The notes under the pieces are model-generated. The model worked only from the letters and a program-made list of their open reading frames with translations, ran no database searches and was not told where the DNA came from. Of a stretch of DNA of 64,000 nt, positions 7,952 through 50,101 are shown in pieces. The first letter of the stretch is position 1. The number at the start of each line of letters is the position of its first letter. A program made the position numbers and the translations under genes. Origin of the DNA: Cupriavidus necator A5-1 (lineage in GTDB: Bacteria; Pseudomonadota; Gammaproteobacteria; Burkholderiales; Burkholderiaceae); the NCBI RefSeq assembly GCF_000744095.1, contig NZ_JQLI01000008.1, positions 1,178,001-1,242,000 on the forward strand, given 5' to 3'.

Positions 7952-8310
7952 TGGTGGAGCCGGCGGGAATCGAACCCGCGTCCGCAAGCCCTCCACAGAG
8001 AGTTCTACATACTTAGTTCTGTCATTTGATTTAACCGGCGCATCGCGGACGAACACGCTCTACGACGGCGAGTCACTAGATTTTCGTCCCCGGACCCGTG
8101 ACACTTCCGGAGCTTATCTGACGTAAATGACCTCGCTTGGTCTTGCGACCCTAGCCCGTCAGCGAGCCAGTGCGAGGACGGCCGCAATTAAGCGGCCAGT
8201 GCGTAACGTTCGTCGTTAGCAGTTATTGCATTCCCATTGATTAACGAGGTGACGGGTCCTCGGTATGCCCTCCACTGCTTTGTAACCCACGTCGAAACCA
8301 GGTCGGCCCC
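7952..8310 (-). ncRNA. ssrA: Transfer-messenger RNA (tmRNA)
   Basis: Rescues stalled ribosomes by adding a degradation tag. The 3' end has a tRNA-like T-arm GGTTCGATTCC, acceptor strand CCGGCTCC and encoded CCA at 7952-7954. The 5' end GGGGCCGACCTGG at 8310 pairs with the acceptor. The tag reading frame begins at the resume codon GCT (8218-8220) and ends TAA at 8188-8190, giving ANDERYALAA, so the full tag is A-ANDERYALAA with the usual LAA protease signal. The length of 359 nt is normal for a one-piece tmRNA. It has its own promoter and terminator. Confidence 0.96.
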
Positions 8311-34421: not shown

Positions 34422-35225
34422 ATGGCCGAGAACGATGCACGCGTGGATGCGCCGCTGCTGACCGAATCGCGCGATGCCGCTGGCGTGGCGCGCCTGACCA
34501 TGAACCGCCCGCAGGCTTTCAATGCCTTGTCCGAAGGGCTGCTGGACGCGCTGACGGAGGCGCTGGCGCGGATCGCTTCGGACGACTCCGTGCGCGTGGT
34601 GGTGCTGGCCGGCGCCGGCAAGGCGTTCTGCGCCGGGCACGACCTGCGCGAGATGCGGGCCTCGCCCTCGCACGACTACTACCGCCGGCTGTTCGACCGT
34701 TGCACGCGCATGATGATGGCGATCCAGAAGATGCCGCAGCCCGTGATCGCGCGCGTGCAGGGGATTGCCACCGCGGCCGGCTGCCAGTTGGTGGCGATGT
34801 GCGACCTGGCGGTGGCGGCCGATGACGCGCGCTTTGCGGTATCCGGCGTCAACCTGGGGCTGTTCTGCTCGACGCCCGGTGTGGCGCTGTCGCGCAACCT
34901 GCTGCGCAAGCAGGCGATGGAGATGCTGCTGACCGGCGACATGATCGACGCCGCCACCGCGCGCGAGCGCGGGCTGGTCAACCGGGTGGTGCCCGCCGAC
35001 CAGCTGGACGACGAGGTGGCGCGCCTGGCCGCCAGCATCTGCGCCAAGCCGGCCGCCGCGGTGGCAGCCGGCAAGGGGCTGTTCTACCGCCAGCTCGAGA
35101 TGGGCATTGAGGCTGCCTACCAGCTTGCCGGCCTGACCATGGCCTGCAACATGATGGACGACTCGGCGCTGGAGGGCGTGCAGGCCTTTATCGACAAGCG
35201 CGCGCCCTCGTGGCGTGGATCATAA
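34422..35225 (+). CDS. Enoyl-CoA hydratase/isomerase family protein lacking both canonical catalytic Glu
   Basis: 267 residues, crotonase fold. CoA-binding and oxyanion-hole segments AGAGKAFCAGHDLREM and GIATAAGCQLVAMCD are clear. In classical hydratases two glutamates activate water (in GCEL and QPEI). Here the equivalents are Q122 (GCQL) and G142 (VSGV), so ordinary hydratase action is doubtful. The sequence resembles the ECHDC3-like group, whose substrate is not settled. It probably forms an operon with the upstream deacetylase. Confidence 0.88.
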   Translation: MAENDARVDAPLLTESRDAAGVARLTMNRPQAFNALSEGLLDALTEALARIASDDSVRVVVLAGAGKAFCAGHDLREMRASPSHDYYRRLFDRCTRMMMAIQKMPQPVIARVQGIATAAGCQLVAMCDLAVAADDARFAVSGVNLGLFCSTPGVALSRNLLRKQAMEMLLTGDMIDAATARERGLVNRVVPADQLDDEVARLAASICAKPAAAVAAGKGLFYRQLEMGIEAAYQLAGLTMACNMMDDSALEGVQAFIDKRAPSWRGS

Positions 35226-35239
35226 GCAACTTACAAGGC

Positions 35240-35264
35240 CTTTATATGCCGGGAAGGTATAAAG
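35240..35264. repeat. Inverted repeat CTTTATA...TATAAAG upstream of metN
   Basis: Perfect 7-bp arms (35240-35246 and 35258-35264) with an 11-base spacer, about 130 bp before metN. It could be an operator or part of a promoter. Confidence 0.35.
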
Positions 35265-35332
35265 ACATCGGTAAAAAGTCGTTTATGGTATGAAGCGGAT
35301 CGCTTAAAATACGCGCTTCACAAAAATAACGT

Positions 35333-35378
35333 GCGGCAACAGCGCTGGAGACCTCCGCGACTGTTGCCGTTTTCTTTT
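35333..35378 (+). terminator. Terminator-like hairpin in the metN leader (possible attenuator)
   Basis: CGGCAACAG (35334-35342) and CTGTTGCCG (35361-35369) form a perfect 9-bp stem. The apical part can pair further (GGA/TCC). TTTTCTTTT follows, ending 13 bp before the metN ATG. It lies downstream of the TAAAAT -10-like hexamer at 35305-35310, so it would be transcribed in the leader. Confidence 0.6.
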
Positions 35379-35390
35379 GGTCACCTTTCC

Positions 35391-36425
35391 ATGATCGAAT
35401 TGCAAGGACTGTCGCAGCGCTTCCCGGGCGCGTCAGGCGACGTGCATGCATTGCGGGACGTCAGCCTGTCGATTGCGGCGGGCGAGGTCTTCGGCATCAT
35501 CGGCCGCAGCGGCGCCGGCAAGAGCACGCTGGTCCGTGCCATCAACCTGCTGAACCGGCCCACCAGCGGCCGCGTGATCGTCGCCGGCCAGGACCTGACC
35601 GGGCTGGACAACGGCGCGCTGCGCCTGGCACGCCGCGAGATCGGCATGATCTTCCAGCACTTCAACCTGCTGTCGTCGCGCACCGTGTATGACAACGTGG
35701 CGCTGCCGCTGGAACTGGCCGGCAAGCCCAAGGCGGAAATTGCCGCCACCGTGCTGCCGCTGCTGGACCTGGTCGGCCTGTCGGCGCTCAAGGACCGCTA
35801 CCCGGCTCAGATCAGCGGCGGGCAGAAGCAGCGCGTGGGCATTGCGCGCGCGCTGGCGAGCAAGCCCAAGGTGCTGCTGTCGGACGAAGCGACTTCTGCG
35901 CTCGACCCTGAAACCACCCGCTCCATCCTCGACCTGCTCAAGCAGATCAACCGCGACCTGGGCCTGACCGTGGTGATGATCACGCACCAGATGGAAGTCA
36001 TCAAGCAGGTCTGCGACCGCGTGGCCGTGCTCGAAGCCGGCCAGGTGGTGGAGACCGGGCGCGTGATCGACGTGTTCCTGCGCCCGCAGCATGACGTCAC
36101 CCGCGCCATGATCGGCGACGTGATTTCGCAGGAACTGCCGGCGAGCGTGCTCAAGCGCGTGGAGAGCCGGCTCGGCAACGGCCGCGACCACGTCTACCGC
36201 CTCGCCTTCACCGGCGAGGGCGTGGACCAGCCGGTGCTGGCCCAGGCGATCCGCCGCTATGGGCTGGACTTCAATATCCTGCACGGCCATATCGACGAGA
36301 TCCAGGGCCAGGCCTTCGGCTCGCTGGCGATCATGGCCACCGGCGAGCTGGCCGACGTGAAGGCGGCGATGGAATACCTGCAGGCGCAAGGCGTCGTGGT
36401 GGAGGAGTTCGAGCATGTGGTCTGA
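35391..36425 (+). CDS. metN: Methionine ABC transporter ATP-binding protein
   Basis: 344 residues, ATPase of the D/L-methionine importer MetNIQ. Walker [10 protein letters not shown] is at 38-46; signature [15 protein letters not shown], Walker [16 protein letters not shown] and the H-loop MITHQ follow. The C-terminal ACT-like (C2/NIL) domain, about residues 260-344, is the site of methionine inhibition in E. coli. metI overlaps its end by 11 bp. No clear ribosome site precedes the ATG; a hairpin with a T-run sits just upstream. Confidence 0.96.
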
Positions 36426-37068
36426 GATGTCTGACCTGTTCCTGACCTCGTTCAATGAGACGCTGCTGATGGTGGCGATCTCGGGCGTGGTGGGCTCGCT
36501 GCTGGGCGTGCCGCTGGGCGTGCTGCTGCACCTGACCAACCGCGGCGGCGTGCTGTCGCACCCGCTGTTCAACCGCACCATCGGCGTGGTGGTCAACGCG
36601 GTGCGCTCGATCCCGTTCATCATCCTGCTGGTGGTGGTGATCCCGTTCACGCGCTTTATCGTCGGCTCGTCGATCGGCACCACCGCGGCAATCGTGCCGC
36701 TGACCATCGCGGCGATCCCGTTTATCGCGCGCCTGGTGGAAAGCGCGCTGCGTGAAGTCGACAAGGGCCTGGTCGAGGCTGCGCAGTCGATGGGCGCGAC
36801 CACCGGCCAGATCGTGTGGAAGGTGCTGCTGCCCGAAGCCATGCCCGGCATCGTTGCCGGCCTGACCATCACCTTTGTCAGCCTGGTCGGCTATTCGGCC
36901 ATGGCCGGTGCGATCGGCGGCGGTGGCCTGGGCGACCTGGGCATCCGCTATGGCTACCAGCGCTACATCACCGAAGTGATGGTGGCGGTGGTGGTGATCC
37001 TGATTGTTTTCGTGCAGGCGGTGCAAAGCTTCGGCGACTGGCTCGTCCGGCGCATCAGCCACCGCTAG
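36415..37068 (+). CDS. metI: Methionine ABC transporter permease
   Basis: 217 residues with five predicted membrane helices, inner membrane channel of MetNIQ. The coupling-helix motif [22 protein letters not shown] binds MetN. The early [13 protein letters not shown] and [12 protein letters not shown] helices match MetI. The ATG lies 11 bp inside metN, indicating translational coupling. It is followed by metQ. Confidence 0.95.
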
Positions 37069-37101
37069 GCTCCATATTTTGTGAAACAGGAAACACACAT
37101 C

Positions 37102-37899
37102 ATGCAACGTCGCAACCTGCTGCAATGGATTCTCGGCGCCGCGCTCGGCGCCTCGCTGGCTACTGGTGCCGTGGCCCAGGAAAAGCCGATCAAGATCGGC
37201 GTGACCGGCGGCCCGCACGCCCAGATCATGGAACAGGTGAAGAAGGTCGCCGCCAAGGACGGCCTCAACATCCAGGTGGTCGAATTCAGCGACTACATCC
37301 AGCCCAATGCCGCGCTCGCCGCCGGCGACCTGGATGCCAACAGCTACCAGCACCTGCCGTACCTGGAAGCCCAGATCAAGGACCGCGGCTACAAGTTCAC
37401 GCATGTAGCCTATACCGTCACTTTCCCGATGGGCGTGTACTCCAAGAAGATCAAGTCGCTCGACCAGCTCAAGCAGGGCGCGCGCGTGGGCGTACCCAAC
37501 GACCCGACCAACGGCGGCCGCGGCCTGCTGCTGCTGCAGAGCAAGGGCGTGATCAAGCTCAAGCCCAACGCCGGCCTGAAGGCGACGCCGCTGGATATCG
37601 TCGAGAACCCCAAGAAGATCCGCATCGTCGAGCTGGACGCCGCGCAGCTGCCGCGCTCGCTGGATGACCTGGACGCCGCCGCGATCAACGGCAACTATGC
37701 GGAATCGGCCGGCCTGTCGCCGACCAAGGACGCGATCGCCATGGAAGGCCCGAAAGGCCCGTACGCCAACCTGATCGCCATCCGCGAGGCCGACAAGAAC
37801 AAGCCCTGGGTGGCCAAGCTGGTGAAGGCCTACCACTCGCCGGAAATCAAGCAATACGTCACTTCGACCTTCAAGGAGTCCGTGATTACCGCCTGGTAA
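37102..37899 (+). CDS. metQ: Methionine-binding periplasmic protein MetQ/NlpA family
   Basis: 265 residues, NlpA-type solute-binding protein. Signal peptide with cleavage after AVA (near residue 25), then KIGVTGGPHAQIMEQVKKVA and the family core EFSDYIQPNAALAAGDLDANSYQH. Unlike most MetQ proteins there is no lipobox cysteine near the cleavage site, so the product should be free in the periplasm. ATG 37102 has AGGAAAC upstream; a GTG at 37081 is in frame but less likely. Third gene of metNIQ. Confidence 0.94.
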   Translation: MQRRNLLQWILGAALGASLATGAVAQEKPIKIGVTGGPHAQIMEQVKKVAAKDGLNIQVVEFSDYIQPNAALAAGDLDANSYQHLPYLEAQIKDRGYKFTHVAYTVTFPMGVYSKKIKSLDQLKQGARVGVPNDPTNGGRGLLLLQSKGVIKLKPNAGLKATPLDIVENPKKIRIVELDAAQLPRSLDDLDAAAINGNYAESAGLSPTKDAIAMEGPKGPYANLIAIREADKNKPWVAKLVKAYHSPEIKQYVTSTFKESVITAW

Positions 37900-38875: not shown

Positions 38876-39811
38876 ATGACTGCACTCGTCATTGCTGAAC
38901 ACGACAATCAATCCATCAAGGCCTCCACGCTGCATACCGTGACGGCTGCTGCCCAGTGCGGCGGCGACGTCCACGTGCTGGTGGCGGGCTCTAACGCCAA
39001 GGCCGCGGCCGACGCTGCCGCGAAGATCGCCGGCGTGAGCAAGGTCCTGCTGGCCGACGCTGCCTACTTCGACCACGGTTTGGCCGAGAACGTCGCAGAG
39101 CAGGCTCTGGCCATCGCCAGCGACTACAGCCACATCCTGGCTCCCGCCACCCCGTACGGCAAGAACATCCTGCCGCGCGTGGCCGCCAAGCTGGACGTGG
39201 CCCAGATCTCGGAAATCTCCAAGGTCGACGCCCCGGACACCTTTGAGCGCCCGATCTACGCCGGCAACGCCATCGCCACCGTGAAGTCGGAAGACAAGAT
39301 CAAGGTCATCAGCGTGCGCGGTACGGCCTTCGACTCCGCTGCTGCCGAAGGCGGCTCGGCTGCCGTCGAGAGCCTGCCGGCCGTGGCCGACCTGGGCATC
39401 TCGCAGTTCGTCTCCAGCGAAGTGGCCAAGAGCGACCGTCCGGAACTGACCGCCGCCAAGATCATCGTCTCGGGCGGCCGTGGCGTGGGTTCGGGCGAGA
39501 ACTACACCAAGGTGCTGACGCCGCTGGCTGACAAGCTGGGCGCCGCGCTGGGTGCCTCGCGCGCCGCCGTGGACGCCGGCTTCGTGCCCAACGACTACCA
39601 GGTCGGCCAGACCGGCAAGATCGTCGCGCCGCAGCTGTATATCGCCGTCGGTATCTCCGGCGCGATCCAGCATCTGGCCGGCATGAAGGACTCCAAGGTG
39701 ATCGTCGCGATCAACAAGGATGCCGAAGCCCCGATCTTCTCCGTGGCCGACTACGGCCTGGTGGGCGATCTGAACACCGTGGTGCCGGAACTGGTTGCCG
39801 CACTGGGCTGA
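38876..39811 (+). CDS. etfA: Electron transfer flavoprotein subunit alpha
   Basis: 311 residues, FAD-binding partner of EtfB. The C-terminal FAD domain has [36 protein letters not shown] and the final [23 protein letters not shown] (in part). The N-terminus is the usual [16 protein letters not shown]. The gene ends at a rho-independent terminator, so etfBA is probably its own transcript. Confidence 0.97.
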
Positions 39812-39863
39812 TGCTGCTGCGCCGGCCACCGCCTCGCGCGGCGGCCGGCAAGGATGCATATAG

Positions 39864-39911
39864 AGCCGTTCCGGGCGGGGTTACACAACCCCCCCGCGAA
39901 CGGCTTTTTTA
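39864..39911 (+). terminator. Rho-independent terminator after etfBA
   Basis: AGCCGTT (39864-39870) pairs with AACGGCT (39899-39905), with GC-rich pairing inside and six T after. It lies only about 20 bp before the acyl-CoA dehydrogenase gene. Confidence 0.85.
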
Positions 39912-39930
39912 TACACATTGGGAGACATCG

Positions 39931-41715
39931 ATGACCTACCGTGCTCCGCTCAAGGACATGCTGTTCGTCATGAACGAGCTGGCTGGCCTTGAAGCCGTCA
40001 GCCAACTGCCCGGCTTCGAGGAAGCCACGCCGGAAACGGCCGAGGCCGTGCTCGAGGAAGCCGCCAAGTTCAACGAGCAGGTCGTCGCGCCGCTCAACCG
40101 TGCCGGCGACCTGGACCCGAGCAGCTGGAAGGACGGCGTCGTCACCACCACGCCCGGCTTCAAGGACGCCTTCCGCCAGTTCGGCGAAGGCGGCTGGCAA
40201 GGCGTGCTGCACCCGCAGGAGTTCGGCGGCCAGGGCCTGCCCAAGCTGATCGCGACCGCCTGCAACGAGATGCTGAACACCGCGAACCTGTCGTTCGCGC
40301 TGTGCCCGCTGCTGACCGACGGCGCCATCGAGGCGCTGCTGACGGCAGGCACGGATGAGCAGAAGGCCACCTTCCTGCCCAAGCTGATCTCGGGCGAGTG
40401 GACCGGCACCATGAACCTGACCGAGCCGCAGGCCGGCTCGGACCTGGCCGCGGTGCGCACCCGCGCCGAGCCGCAGGGTGACGGCACGTTCAAGCTGTTC
40501 GGCACCAAGATCTTCATCACCTACGGCGAGCACGACATGGCGAAGAACATCGTCCATCTCGTGCTGGCGCGCACGCCCAGCGCGCCCGAGGGCGTCAAGG
40601 GCATTTCCCTGTTCATCGTGCCGAAGTTCCTGGTCAATGCCGACGGCACCCCGGGCGAGCGCAATGATGTGTACTGCGTGTCGATCGAGCACAAGCTGGG
40701 CATCAAGGCCAGCCCGACCGCGGTGCTGCAGTTCGGCGACCACGGCGGCGCCATCGGCACGCTGGTGGGCGAAGAGAACCGCGGCCTGGAGTACATGTTC
40801 ATCATGATGAACTCGGCGCGCTTCTCGGTCGGCATGCAGGGTGTGGCGGTGTCCGAGCGCGCCTACCAGCAGGCCGTGGCGTATGCGCGCGAACGCGTGC
40901 AGAGCCGCCCGGTCGACGGTTCGGCGCGCGAGGCAGTGACCATCATCCACCACCCCGACGTCAAGCGCATGCTGATGACGATGCGCGCGCTGACTGAAGG
41001 CGCGCGCGCCGTGGCCTACGTGGCTGCCGCCGCCAGCGACGCGGCGCACCAGCATCCGGACGAAGCCGCGCGCCAGCAGAACCAGGCGTTCTATGAGTTC
41101 CTGGTGCCGGTGATCAAGGGCTGGAGCACCGAGCTGTCGATCGACGTCACCAGCCTGGGCGTGCAGGTGCACGGCGGCATGGGCTTCATCGAGGAAACCG
41201 GCGCGGCGCAGCATTACCGCGATGCTCGCATCCTGCCGATCTACGAAGGCACCACCGCGATCCAGGCCAACGACCTGGTCGGCCGCAAGACCGTGCGCGA
41301 CGGCGGCGCCGTGGCGCGCGCGATCTGCGCGCAGATCGCCGAGACCGAGGCCGCGCTGGGCCAGCACAGCTGTGCGGGGTTCACCGCGGTGCAGGCGCAG
41401 CTGGCCAAGGGCCGCGCGGCGCTGGAAGAGGTAGTGGCGTTTGTCGCGGCCAATGCCAAGTCGGACCCGAACGCCGTCTTTGCCGGCAGCGTGCCTTACC
41501 TGAAGCTGTGCGGCATCGTGTTCTCGGGCTGGCAGCTGGGCCGTGCCATGCTGGCGGCCGATGCGAAGCGTGCCGAGGATCCGGGCTTTTATGACGCCAA
41601 GATCGCCACTGCGCATTTCTTCGCCGAGCACATCCTGTCGCAGGCGTCGGCTTTACGCGATGCCATCGTCAGCGGTGCGGCACCGGTGAATGCGCTGACG
41701 GCCGAGCAGTTCTGA
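39931..41715 (+). CDS. Acyl-CoA dehydrogenase, long bacterial form with C-terminal extension
   Basis: 594 residues, longer than the ~380 of classical enzymes. It belongs to the group containing DmdC (methylthiopropionyl-CoA dehydrogenase) and AcdA-type proteins. The N-terminal helical domain is followed by the FAD-binding core MNLTEPQAGSDLAAVRT. The catalytic base is probably E439 in LPIYEGTTAIQANDL, with HGGMGFIEETGAAQ nearby. The last ~130 residues are the extra domain of this subgroup. Electrons should go to the adjacent EtfBA. The substrate is unknown. RBS GGGAG is clear. Confidence 0.94.
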   Translation: MTYRAPLKDMLFVMNELAGLEAVSQLPGFEEATPETAEAVLEEAAKFNEQVVAPLNRAGDLDPSSWKDGVVTTTPGFKDAFRQFGEGGWQGVLHPQEFGGQGLPKLIATACNEMLNTANLSFALCPLLTDGAIEALLTAGTDEQKATFLPKLISGEWTGTMNLTEPQAGSDLAAVRTRAEPQGDGTFKLFGTKIFITYGEHDMAKNIVHLVLARTPSAPEGVKGISLFIVPKFLVNADGTPGERNDVYCVSIEHKLGIKASPTAVLQFGDHGGAIGTLVGEENRGLEYMFIMMNSARFSVGMQGVAVSERAYQQAVAYARERVQSRPVDGSAREAVTIIHHPDVKRMLMTMRALTEGARAVAYVAAAASDAAHQHPDEAARQQNQAFYEFLVPVIKGWSTELSIDVTSLGVQVHGGMGFIEETGAAQHYRDARILPIYEGTTAIQANDLVGRKTVRDGGAVARAICAQIAETEAALGQHSCAGFTAVQAQLAKGRAALEEVVAFVAANAKSDPNAVFAGSVPYLKLCGIVFSGWQLGRAMLAADAKRAEDPGFYDAKIATAHFFAEHILSQASALRDAIVSGAAPVNALTAEQF

Positions 41716-49370: not shown

Positions 49371-49390
49371 TCGCCCGATAGCTGCCTGTA

Positions 49391-49428
49391 ACGCGCCTGG
49401 CCTCTCCCGTTGGTGAGGCCAGGCGCGT
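49391..49428 (+). terminator. Hairpin between rpsP and rimM, attenuator-like
   Basis: ACGCGCCTGGCCTC and its exact complement (14 bp) with a 10-base loop. TCTTATT follows, a weak T-run. It probably lowers readthrough into rimM-trmD-rplS, or protects the rpsP end. Confidence 0.65.
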
Positions 49429-49441
49429 TCTTATTGCACAC

Positions 49442-50101
49442 GTGACTGAACTCAAACAGGGCGCCGCACCCCGGCCGCTGAACCGGCCCCAGGGCGAGCC
49501 GCAAAAGGCTCAGAAACTGCCTGCGGCGCTGCTGTATGCCGATCCGCTGCCGGAAGACCTGGTAGAGGTTGGCTACGTCGGCGCGGCCTATGGCATCCGT
49601 GGCTGGATCAAGGTCCAGCCGCATGCCGATGACGCGTCCGCGTTGCTGCATGCCCGCCGCTGGTGGCTGCTGGCGCCGCCGCAGGCGGGATTGGTGGCAG
49701 CTGACGCGGCGCGTGCCCAGTCGCTCTGCGTGAAGATCGCGCAGTCGCGCGAGCACAGCGGCACGGTGGTGGCGCAGGCCAGTGGCGTTGCCGATCGCAA
49801 TCTTGCGGAAGCGCTCAAGGGCCGTCGCGTGTGGATCCGGCGTGCGGATTTTCCGGCGCCGGAAGAAGATGAGTTTTACTGGGTCGACCTGATCGGCTGC
49901 ACCGTCAGCAACGAGCAAGGCGAGTTGCTGGGCGAGGTGTCCGGCCTGATCGACAACGGTGCCCACCAGATCCTGCAGGTTGCCTTTGTGCAGCCTGACG
50001 GCAAGGCCGGTGAACGGCTGATCCCGTTTGTCGATGCGTTCCTGCGCTCGGTCGATACCGCAGGCAAGCGCATCGTGGTCGACTGGGGGCTCGATTACTG
50101 A
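49442..50101 (+). CDS. rimM: Ribosome maturation factor RimM
   Basis: 219 residues with a GTG start. Assists 30S assembly, binding S19. RimM N domain (DLVEVGYVGAAYGIRGWIKVQP) and PRC-barrel C domain (EFYWVDLIGCTVSNEQGELLGEV) are clear. An N-terminal extension of about 40 residues (rich in Pro, Gln and Ala) precedes the core. Operon order and the tight link to trmD support the call. Confidence 0.96.
   Translation: MTELKQGAAPRPLNRPQGEPQKAQKLPAALLYADPLPEDLVEVGYVGAAYGIRGWIKVQPHADDASALLHARRWWLLAPPQAGLVAADAARAQSLCVKIAQSREHSGTVVAQASGVADRNLAEALKGRRVWIRRADFPAPEEDEFYWVDLIGCTVSNEQGELLGEVSGLIDNGAHQILQVAFVQPDGKAGERLIPFVDAFLRSVDTAGKRIVVDWGLDY

Follow-up and report, generated by a model that had tools for sequence, protein, structure and literature searches.

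How metNIQ, the methionine importer locus, is regulated in beta-proteobacteria is a question for which the literature leaves a gap: the part of Leyn et al. 2014 (PMC4239095) that bears on it reports that metNIQ regulation was sought in these bacteria and none was found, with no known methionine regulator. The locus of Cupriavidus necator A5-1 puts this question in a concrete form: a terminator-like hairpin stands directly before metN, the first gene of the importer (Table 1). What might a hairpin do at this place? We address the question in the window (the whole stretch of 64,000 nucleotides that was analysed, from a genome of 9.7 Mb) and in the metN leaders of related bacteria, following the hairpin, the translation start and the predicted promoter in turn and weighing the competing readings at the point where the evidence bears on them.

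Table 1 Features of the metNIQ locus in window coordinates; promoter elements and upstream repeats are predictions.
Feature	Position	Strand	Details
TTATA-N11-TATAA dyad	35242-35262	.	centred at about -65 from the predicted +1
-35-like element TTTATG, weak	35282-35287	+	17 nt 5' of the -10 box; within the block TCGTTT..GG, which is conserved in the genus; missed by a consensus scan
GAAGCG/CGCTTC inverted repeat	35292-35319	.	brackets the -10 box
-10 box TAAAAT	35305-35310	+	predicted +1 at about 35317
Terminator-like hairpin	35334-35369	+	arms 35334-35342 and 35361-35369, plus inner stem
T-tract TTTTCTTTT	35370-35378	+	adjoins the stem end
Spacer without Shine-Dalgarno site	35379-35390	+	12 nt, from the T-tract end to the metN ATG (35391)
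metN, methionine ABC transporter ATPase	35391-36425	+	NCBIfam TIGR02314, 405.5 bits, from residue 1, below the cut-off of 499.7
metI	36415-37068		downstream of metN; PRK10782, above its cut-off
metQ	37081-37899		downstream of metI; TIGR00363, above its cut-off

A terminator-like hairpin precedes metN in the window

The leader comprises the 165 nt between the stop codon of a co-directional enoyl-CoA hydratase gene (34422-35225) and the metN ATG. Its hairpin has an outer stem of nine Watson-Crick pairs between CGGCAACAG and CTGTTGCCG, and the 9-bp stem with its T-run is present in the sequence as the first-pass annotation had described it; the distance of 13 bp to the metN ATG given there is to be corrected, the stem ending 21 nt and the T-run 12 nt before the start codon. 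Folded as a whole, the 165-nt leader reaches -51.1 kcal/mol (z -2.62), and 3 of 200 shuffles fold equally well. A GC-rich stem with an immediate U-tract is the form of an intrinsic terminator, although a simple pattern scan of 34500-36000, whose terminator rule allows loops of 3-8 only, directly after the stem, missed the hairpin and returned no promoter-like and no terminator-like site. Two other arrangements of the metN start were discarded, i.e., a start at the GTG at 35331, whose frame is broken by single-base length differences between species, and a leaderless message, for which inspection by eye found no -10-like sequence directly 5' of the ATG.

On its own chromosome (1.264 Mb), 665 called genes have 60 nt or more of free sequence in front of them, and metN is one of 6 among these that combine a single hairpin (E <= -15) and a T-tract within 25 nt with a missing Shine-Dalgarno site (energy above -3); genes were called in this analysis by a caller that favours Shine-Dalgarno starts, so that Shine-Dalgarno counts are biased upward. 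Of the 12 single-hairpin cases listed, some of which may have a Shine-Dalgarno site, metN alone shows a -10-like box at most 40 nt upstream.

Two further hairpins were seen in the window. One, of -33 kcal/mol and with a T-run (39863-39906), lies between an etfA-like gene (38876-39811) and an acyl-CoA dehydrogenase-like gene (39931-41715; both names by eye), the latter having a Shine-Dalgarno site, and is probably an ordinary terminator. The other, near-perfect and of -35 kcal/mol (about 49390-49429), lies shortly 5' of a gene called at 49442 that has a GTG start and no clear Shine-Dalgarno site.

Hairpin and T-tract are conserved across the family

Within the genus, a search with the leader gives one match per genome in 60 of 60 genomes. 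The 75 leaders from Cupriavidus and Ralstonia reduce to 60 distinct ones, all of which retain the seven pairs of CGGCAAC/GTTGCCG (with a G-U wobble at one pair in four leaders), and the TTTT after the stem is 98-100% T. Together, stem base and TTTT make up the longest nearly invariant block of these leaders besides the start codon. Used as a search pattern in 13 Cupriavidus genomes, CGGCAAC..GTTGCCGTTT matches at metN in every one and has one additional match elsewhere in two of them; its reversed control gives a single match in the 13.

For the family, MetN was detected at E <= 1e-110 in 143 of 200 sampled genomes, and 88 of the 122 places outside Cupriavidus were read (15 from Ralstonia and 73 others, hand-picked for genus spread), which with the 60 own-genus leaders yields a set of 148 from 13 genera, some genus names being assigned from the leader sequence. 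Hairpin and T-tract lie just 5' of the metN ATG in 142 of the 148 leaders and in 11 of the 13 genera, counts into which both features are partly built, as the hairpin scan demanded a T-tract and outer pairs. In six leaders they were not found (L189, L229, L231 and L240-L242), and the single match in genus g15, which resembles a chance fold, is left out of later counts. The hairpins are more stable than expected from their composition: among 3300 dinucleotide shuffles made from 110 distinct hairpins of 11 genera, with the T-tract left in place, 42 equal or exceed the native sequence in stability, and when the outer pairs are held constant the inner part is likewise more stable than its shuffles, with a mean z of -2.1 to -4.8 in ten genera (g15, +0.4). 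At the first four positions after the stem, the T frequency, partly imposed by the search, is 0.95, 0.91, 0.97 and 0.80 as the mean of nine genera. Many U-tracts are interrupted, e.g., TTTTCTTTT, TTTCGTTTTT and TTTGCATTTT, and termination may therefore be weak. The loops have, by eye, no sequence common to the genera, and hairpin lengths vary. The hairpin is a real, conserved feature of these leaders.

Outside the family, a hairpin with a T-tract stands at 10 nt from the metN ATG in Herbaspirillum, 11 nt in one Comamonas, 15 nt in Pollutimonas, 16 nt in an f8 genome, 27 nt in Duganella and 33 nt in Herminiimonas; none was found before metN in Sutterella, Variovorax, Xylophilus, Polaromonas and one of two Comamonas. 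Some leaders of the family have peculiarities of their own. In genus g20, five leaders (L222 and L224-L227) have a much longer hairpin at the same place, about 76-86 nt when folded, and four of the five close on the usual ACGGCGG/CCGCCGT stem. One genome has metN twice (L195 and L196, G069:C1), the copies lying about 3.1 kb from each other and having identical leader hairpins.

The stem base is nearly invariant within genera and differs between them

The first-pass annotation had proposed covariation across homologous leaders as a check, and the outcome depends on the level of comparison. Within genera, no pair is altered on both sides, neither among the 8 pairs of the RNAalifold alignment (A2) nor among the 17 pairs of the alignment used for pair counts (A5), in which 89.6% of cells are paired, a share not above that of shuffles, yet above that of slid versions; with so little variation at the stem base, formal covariation is weak here. 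Support comes from the comparison between genera, made on 108 distinct hairpins in which the first stem pairs are partly demanded by the search: the stem pairs at positions 5-6, A-U in Cupriavidus and Ralstonia, are mostly G-C in the other genera (AA/UU to mostly GG/CC), and inner stems are replaced with pairing maintained. An alignment of 60 hairpins from nine genera (A4) displaces the CGGCGGC arms and was kept out of the pair counts; A1, with six sequences, was a first look. The near-invariance of CGGC/GCCG suggests, as far as sequence comparison reaches, a constraint beyond that on a plain terminator. A role of the stem arms as a DNA operator was discarded, the spacer between them being variable in length and the stem being followed by a T-tract.

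metN starts lack a Shine-Dalgarno site

That metN has no recognisable ribosome site, as had been noted from the window alone, is borne out here and extends to the family: the anti-Shine-Dalgarno duplex energy for metN is -2.2 kcal/mol, and none of the 148 family leaders has a site at -5 kcal/mol or below, nine g10 leaders reaching -4.7. AGGA, GGAG or GAGG occurs in none of the 90 distinct stretches between stem and ATG. As a control, 26 of 48 metN loci from other taxa have a site at <= -5, or 20 of 29 where the start codon mapped properly, and so do 386 of the 665 called own-chromosome genes with free upstream sequence, a share that the caller's preference for such starts favours.

A hairpin followed by a U-rich stretch could then be read as a 5'-UTR element that serves mRNA stability or start-codon presentation, the U-rich stretch being a landing site for the ribosome (protein S1) in place of the Shine-Dalgarno site. 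This would fit the Shine-Dalgarno energies, which fail to reach the threshold in 148 of 148 leaders, the distance from stem to ATG, which is always short (5-25 nt), and the T-richness of this stretch, which extends up to the ATG and is seen when the leaders are aligned on the ATG as well. With the frequent interruptions of the T-tract, this T-richness suits a translational role too. However, T is most frequent directly after the stem, in the manner of intrinsic terminators, and the distance to the ATG varies, an argument of modest weight as the T-tract was imposed by the search. We consider the UTR element, taken in place of a terminator, unlikely while granting it some weight, and the points against it leave room for a double role in which the leader may act in termination and in translation.

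A predicted promoter lies between the upstream gene and the hairpin

In 139 of 141 leaders (all but L190 and L239), an evenly spaced -10-like box, TA[N]A[AC]T, precedes the hairpin by 19-33 nt. In Cupriavidus, it reads TAAAAT in 59 of 60 leaders and TAGAAT in one; since Ralstonia has TACACT, the box is more variable than the stem block. Taking the seventh base after the box as the predicted +1, the hairpin would begin 13-27 nt downstream of the start in these 139 leaders, and the predicted leaders would be 62-94 nt long, apart from g20 with 114-122 nt. Thus placed, the hairpin of nine genera stands 3' of the -10-like box and ahead of the metN start codon, the promoter being a prediction in all of them.

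This arrangement bears on whether the hairpin could simply terminate transcription of the enoyl-CoA hydratase gene, which in the window has the same orientation as metN and stops 165 nt before it. Against this, the hairpin is situated 3' of the promoter predicted for metN itself, and it is also present at loci whose nearest upstream gene is divergent, as reading-frame picking indicates for 14 of 14 loci from Burkholderia, Paraburkholderia and Caballeronia in a set of 31 examined. With a divergent neighbour, the hairpin is not another gene's terminator in those loci, and, as it lies 3' of the -10-like box, metN expression there must cross it. We give hardly any credence to the upstream gene as the owner of the hairpin.

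Upstream of the predicted start, three elements might contribute to promoter control. The TTATA-N11-TATAA dyad is of the T-N11-A type, a possible LysR box; it is exact in 9 of 60 Cupriavidus leaders, and 14 of 15 that are listed show the variant TATG..[CT]ATAA (L137 differs on the right side). A LysR-type regulator may control metNIQ at this candidate dyad. The promoter spacer GGTATGAAGCGRATCGC (35282-35310) is unusually conserved across Cupriavidus, and an operator within it is possible.

The third element is the inverted repeat around the -10 box. The first-pass annotation had proposed alternative RNA pairings of AAGCG (35293-35297) with CGCTT (35301-35305), or of GAAGCG (35292-35297) with CGCTTC (35314-35319), and all of these motifs are in the sequence. 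The covariation of AAGCG/CGCTT is no better than that of shuffles. GAAGCG/CGCTTC is largely kept in Cupriavidus, with 88% of cells paired in an alignment of 34 of the 50 distinct upstream stretches; its covariation score is matched by 2 of 500 shuffles, and its two pairs with changes on both sides are equalled by 108 of 500. It is broken in some Cupriavidus, and the spacer differs in Ralstonia. AAGCG, GAAGCG and most of the repeat lie upstream of the predicted +1, and since both pairings straddle the predicted -10 box, they are probably not in the RNA. GAAGCG/CGCTTC is kept as a possible DNA operator, in Cupriavidus only.

Tests for a riboswitch or a leader peptide

Given the methionine-uptake gene that follows, a methionine or SAM riboswitch, or a leader-peptide attenuator with alternative pairings, was the idea raised when the window was first annotated. 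No known SAM riboswitch had been recognised at that time, in agreement with Rfam 15, which at gathering score has no match on the leader or in 17 related loci. The strongest candidate, BSR1350, scores 19.6 bits against a cut-off of 216 (E 1.1), i.e., at chance level. The gathering-score matches in the whole window are limited to tmRNA; its gene lies at 7952-8310 on the minus strand and encodes the tag ANDERYALAA.

When the predicted RNA is folded together with 60 nt of metN, the outer stem forms with genus medians of pair probability of 0.88-1.00, the lowest values for single leaders being 0.00 (g25), 0.37 (g20) and 0.54 (g11). Because this terminator helix dominates the ensemble, the alternative arms surround the predicted -10 box and there is room for just 13-27 nt before the hairpin, a methionine-responsive RNA is unsupported.

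For a leader peptide, a start codon between the predicted +1 and the hairpin occurs in 28 of 139 leaders and in 4 of 60 from Cupriavidus. There is none in Ralstonia, g20, g13 or g7, whereas 10 of 11 g10 leaders have one and 11 of 14 g11 leaders have an ATG. No frame is common to the genera, and frame lengths vary among the 139 leaders. The frame ATG AAG CGG ATC GCT TAA (35290-35307), which overlaps the -10 box, was also considered as a leader peptide and rejected: its start is lost in L131, L132, L134, L135 and L137, and it reads ATG TAG in most of the Ralstonia leaders listed. The gene context, the largely kept GAAGCG/CGCTTC in Cupriavidus and the ATG of the g11 leaders would suit a riboswitch or leader peptide; set against them are the chance-level Rfam matches, the short distance from the predicted +1 to the hairpin, loops with no sequence common to the genera and the scarcity of start codons. 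We judge a sensor of either kind to be highly improbable.

A minimal attenuator as the favoured reading

From this arrangement, we infer a transcription start, termination and some amount of read-through, and we hold, with somewhat better than even confidence, that the metNIQ leader is a minimal promoter-proximal intrinsic terminator, i.e., an attenuator, with no sensor in cis. RNA polymerase would start about 17 nt 5' of the hairpin and transcribe its GC-rich stem, and a fraction of the complexes would terminate in the U-tract, leaving an RNA of about 60 nt that ends just 5' of the metN start codon. Complexes that read through would produce the metNIQ mRNA, whose AUG, right behind the U-tract, would be used without a Shine-Dalgarno site. 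The hairpin probably shortens some messages in this way before the importer genes are reached. As the leader is too short for a sensor in cis, any regulated read-through would need a trans factor or a dependence on elongation conditions, and promoter control by a LysR-type regulator could perhaps operate alongside it. Of the earlier interpretation, the small attenuator is retained, with its hairpin between -10-like box and metN in nine genera, and the methionine-responsive RNA with alternative pairings is given up.

The predicted transcript also has the form of a small RNA, with promoter, short 5' tail, terminator and U-tail, and the leader could be the gene of a terminated RNA of about 60 nt that acts in trans (Hfq-type), metN being expressed by read-through. 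Among Burkholderia cenocepacia leaders longer than 72 nt, 82 give rise to short transcripts, according to the part of PMC5688073 that describes them. A seed region would be expected in the 5' single-stranded part, yet this part differs between genera and, in Cupriavidus and Ralstonia, shows lower conservation than the stem base. We regard a small RNA gene as very unlikely. For the attenuator itself, we consider a further elaboration a rather long shot, namely that one U-tract would serve both as the termination point and as the ribosome landing site after read-through, and that a trans factor acting on the nearly invariant stem base, CGGC-RR..YY-GCCG, would tune methionine import across Burkholderiaceae.

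Comparison with known systems

In literature searched by title and abstract start, no description of the metN leader was found, and metN does not occur in the portions of PMC2965389 and PMC7563307 covered. A leader anatomy common to about ten genera offers a concrete and cheap test for the metNIQ regulation gap left by PMC4239095, as far as its relevant part describes it. One likeness is the metXZ element of the same study: a candidate RNA element of methionine genes in the same bacteria, with a terminator hairpin and U-tract after it, the sequence of these terminators not being conserved. It differs in having six conserved regions before the terminator and in its place 5' of metX or metZ (PMC4239095), whereas the metN leader has just 13-27 nt from predicted start to hairpin.

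The short transcripts from B. cenocepacia 5' UTRs, ascribed to processing or terminator attenuation, are a second likeness, with the difference that the study, in the part used here, inspected leaders longer than 72 nt only (PMC5688073). In g11, where the leader sequences match Burkholderia loci, the predicted metN leaders measure 62-78 nt. The SAM-I, SAM-II and SAH riboswitches that carry terminators use them in the leader to control methionine genes; the metN leader differs from them in that it matches no Rfam family, has no alternative helix and leaves no space for an aptamer 5' of the hairpin. Set beside these systems, the metN leader would be a clean case, an attenuator that consists of just a promoter, a hairpin and a start codon.
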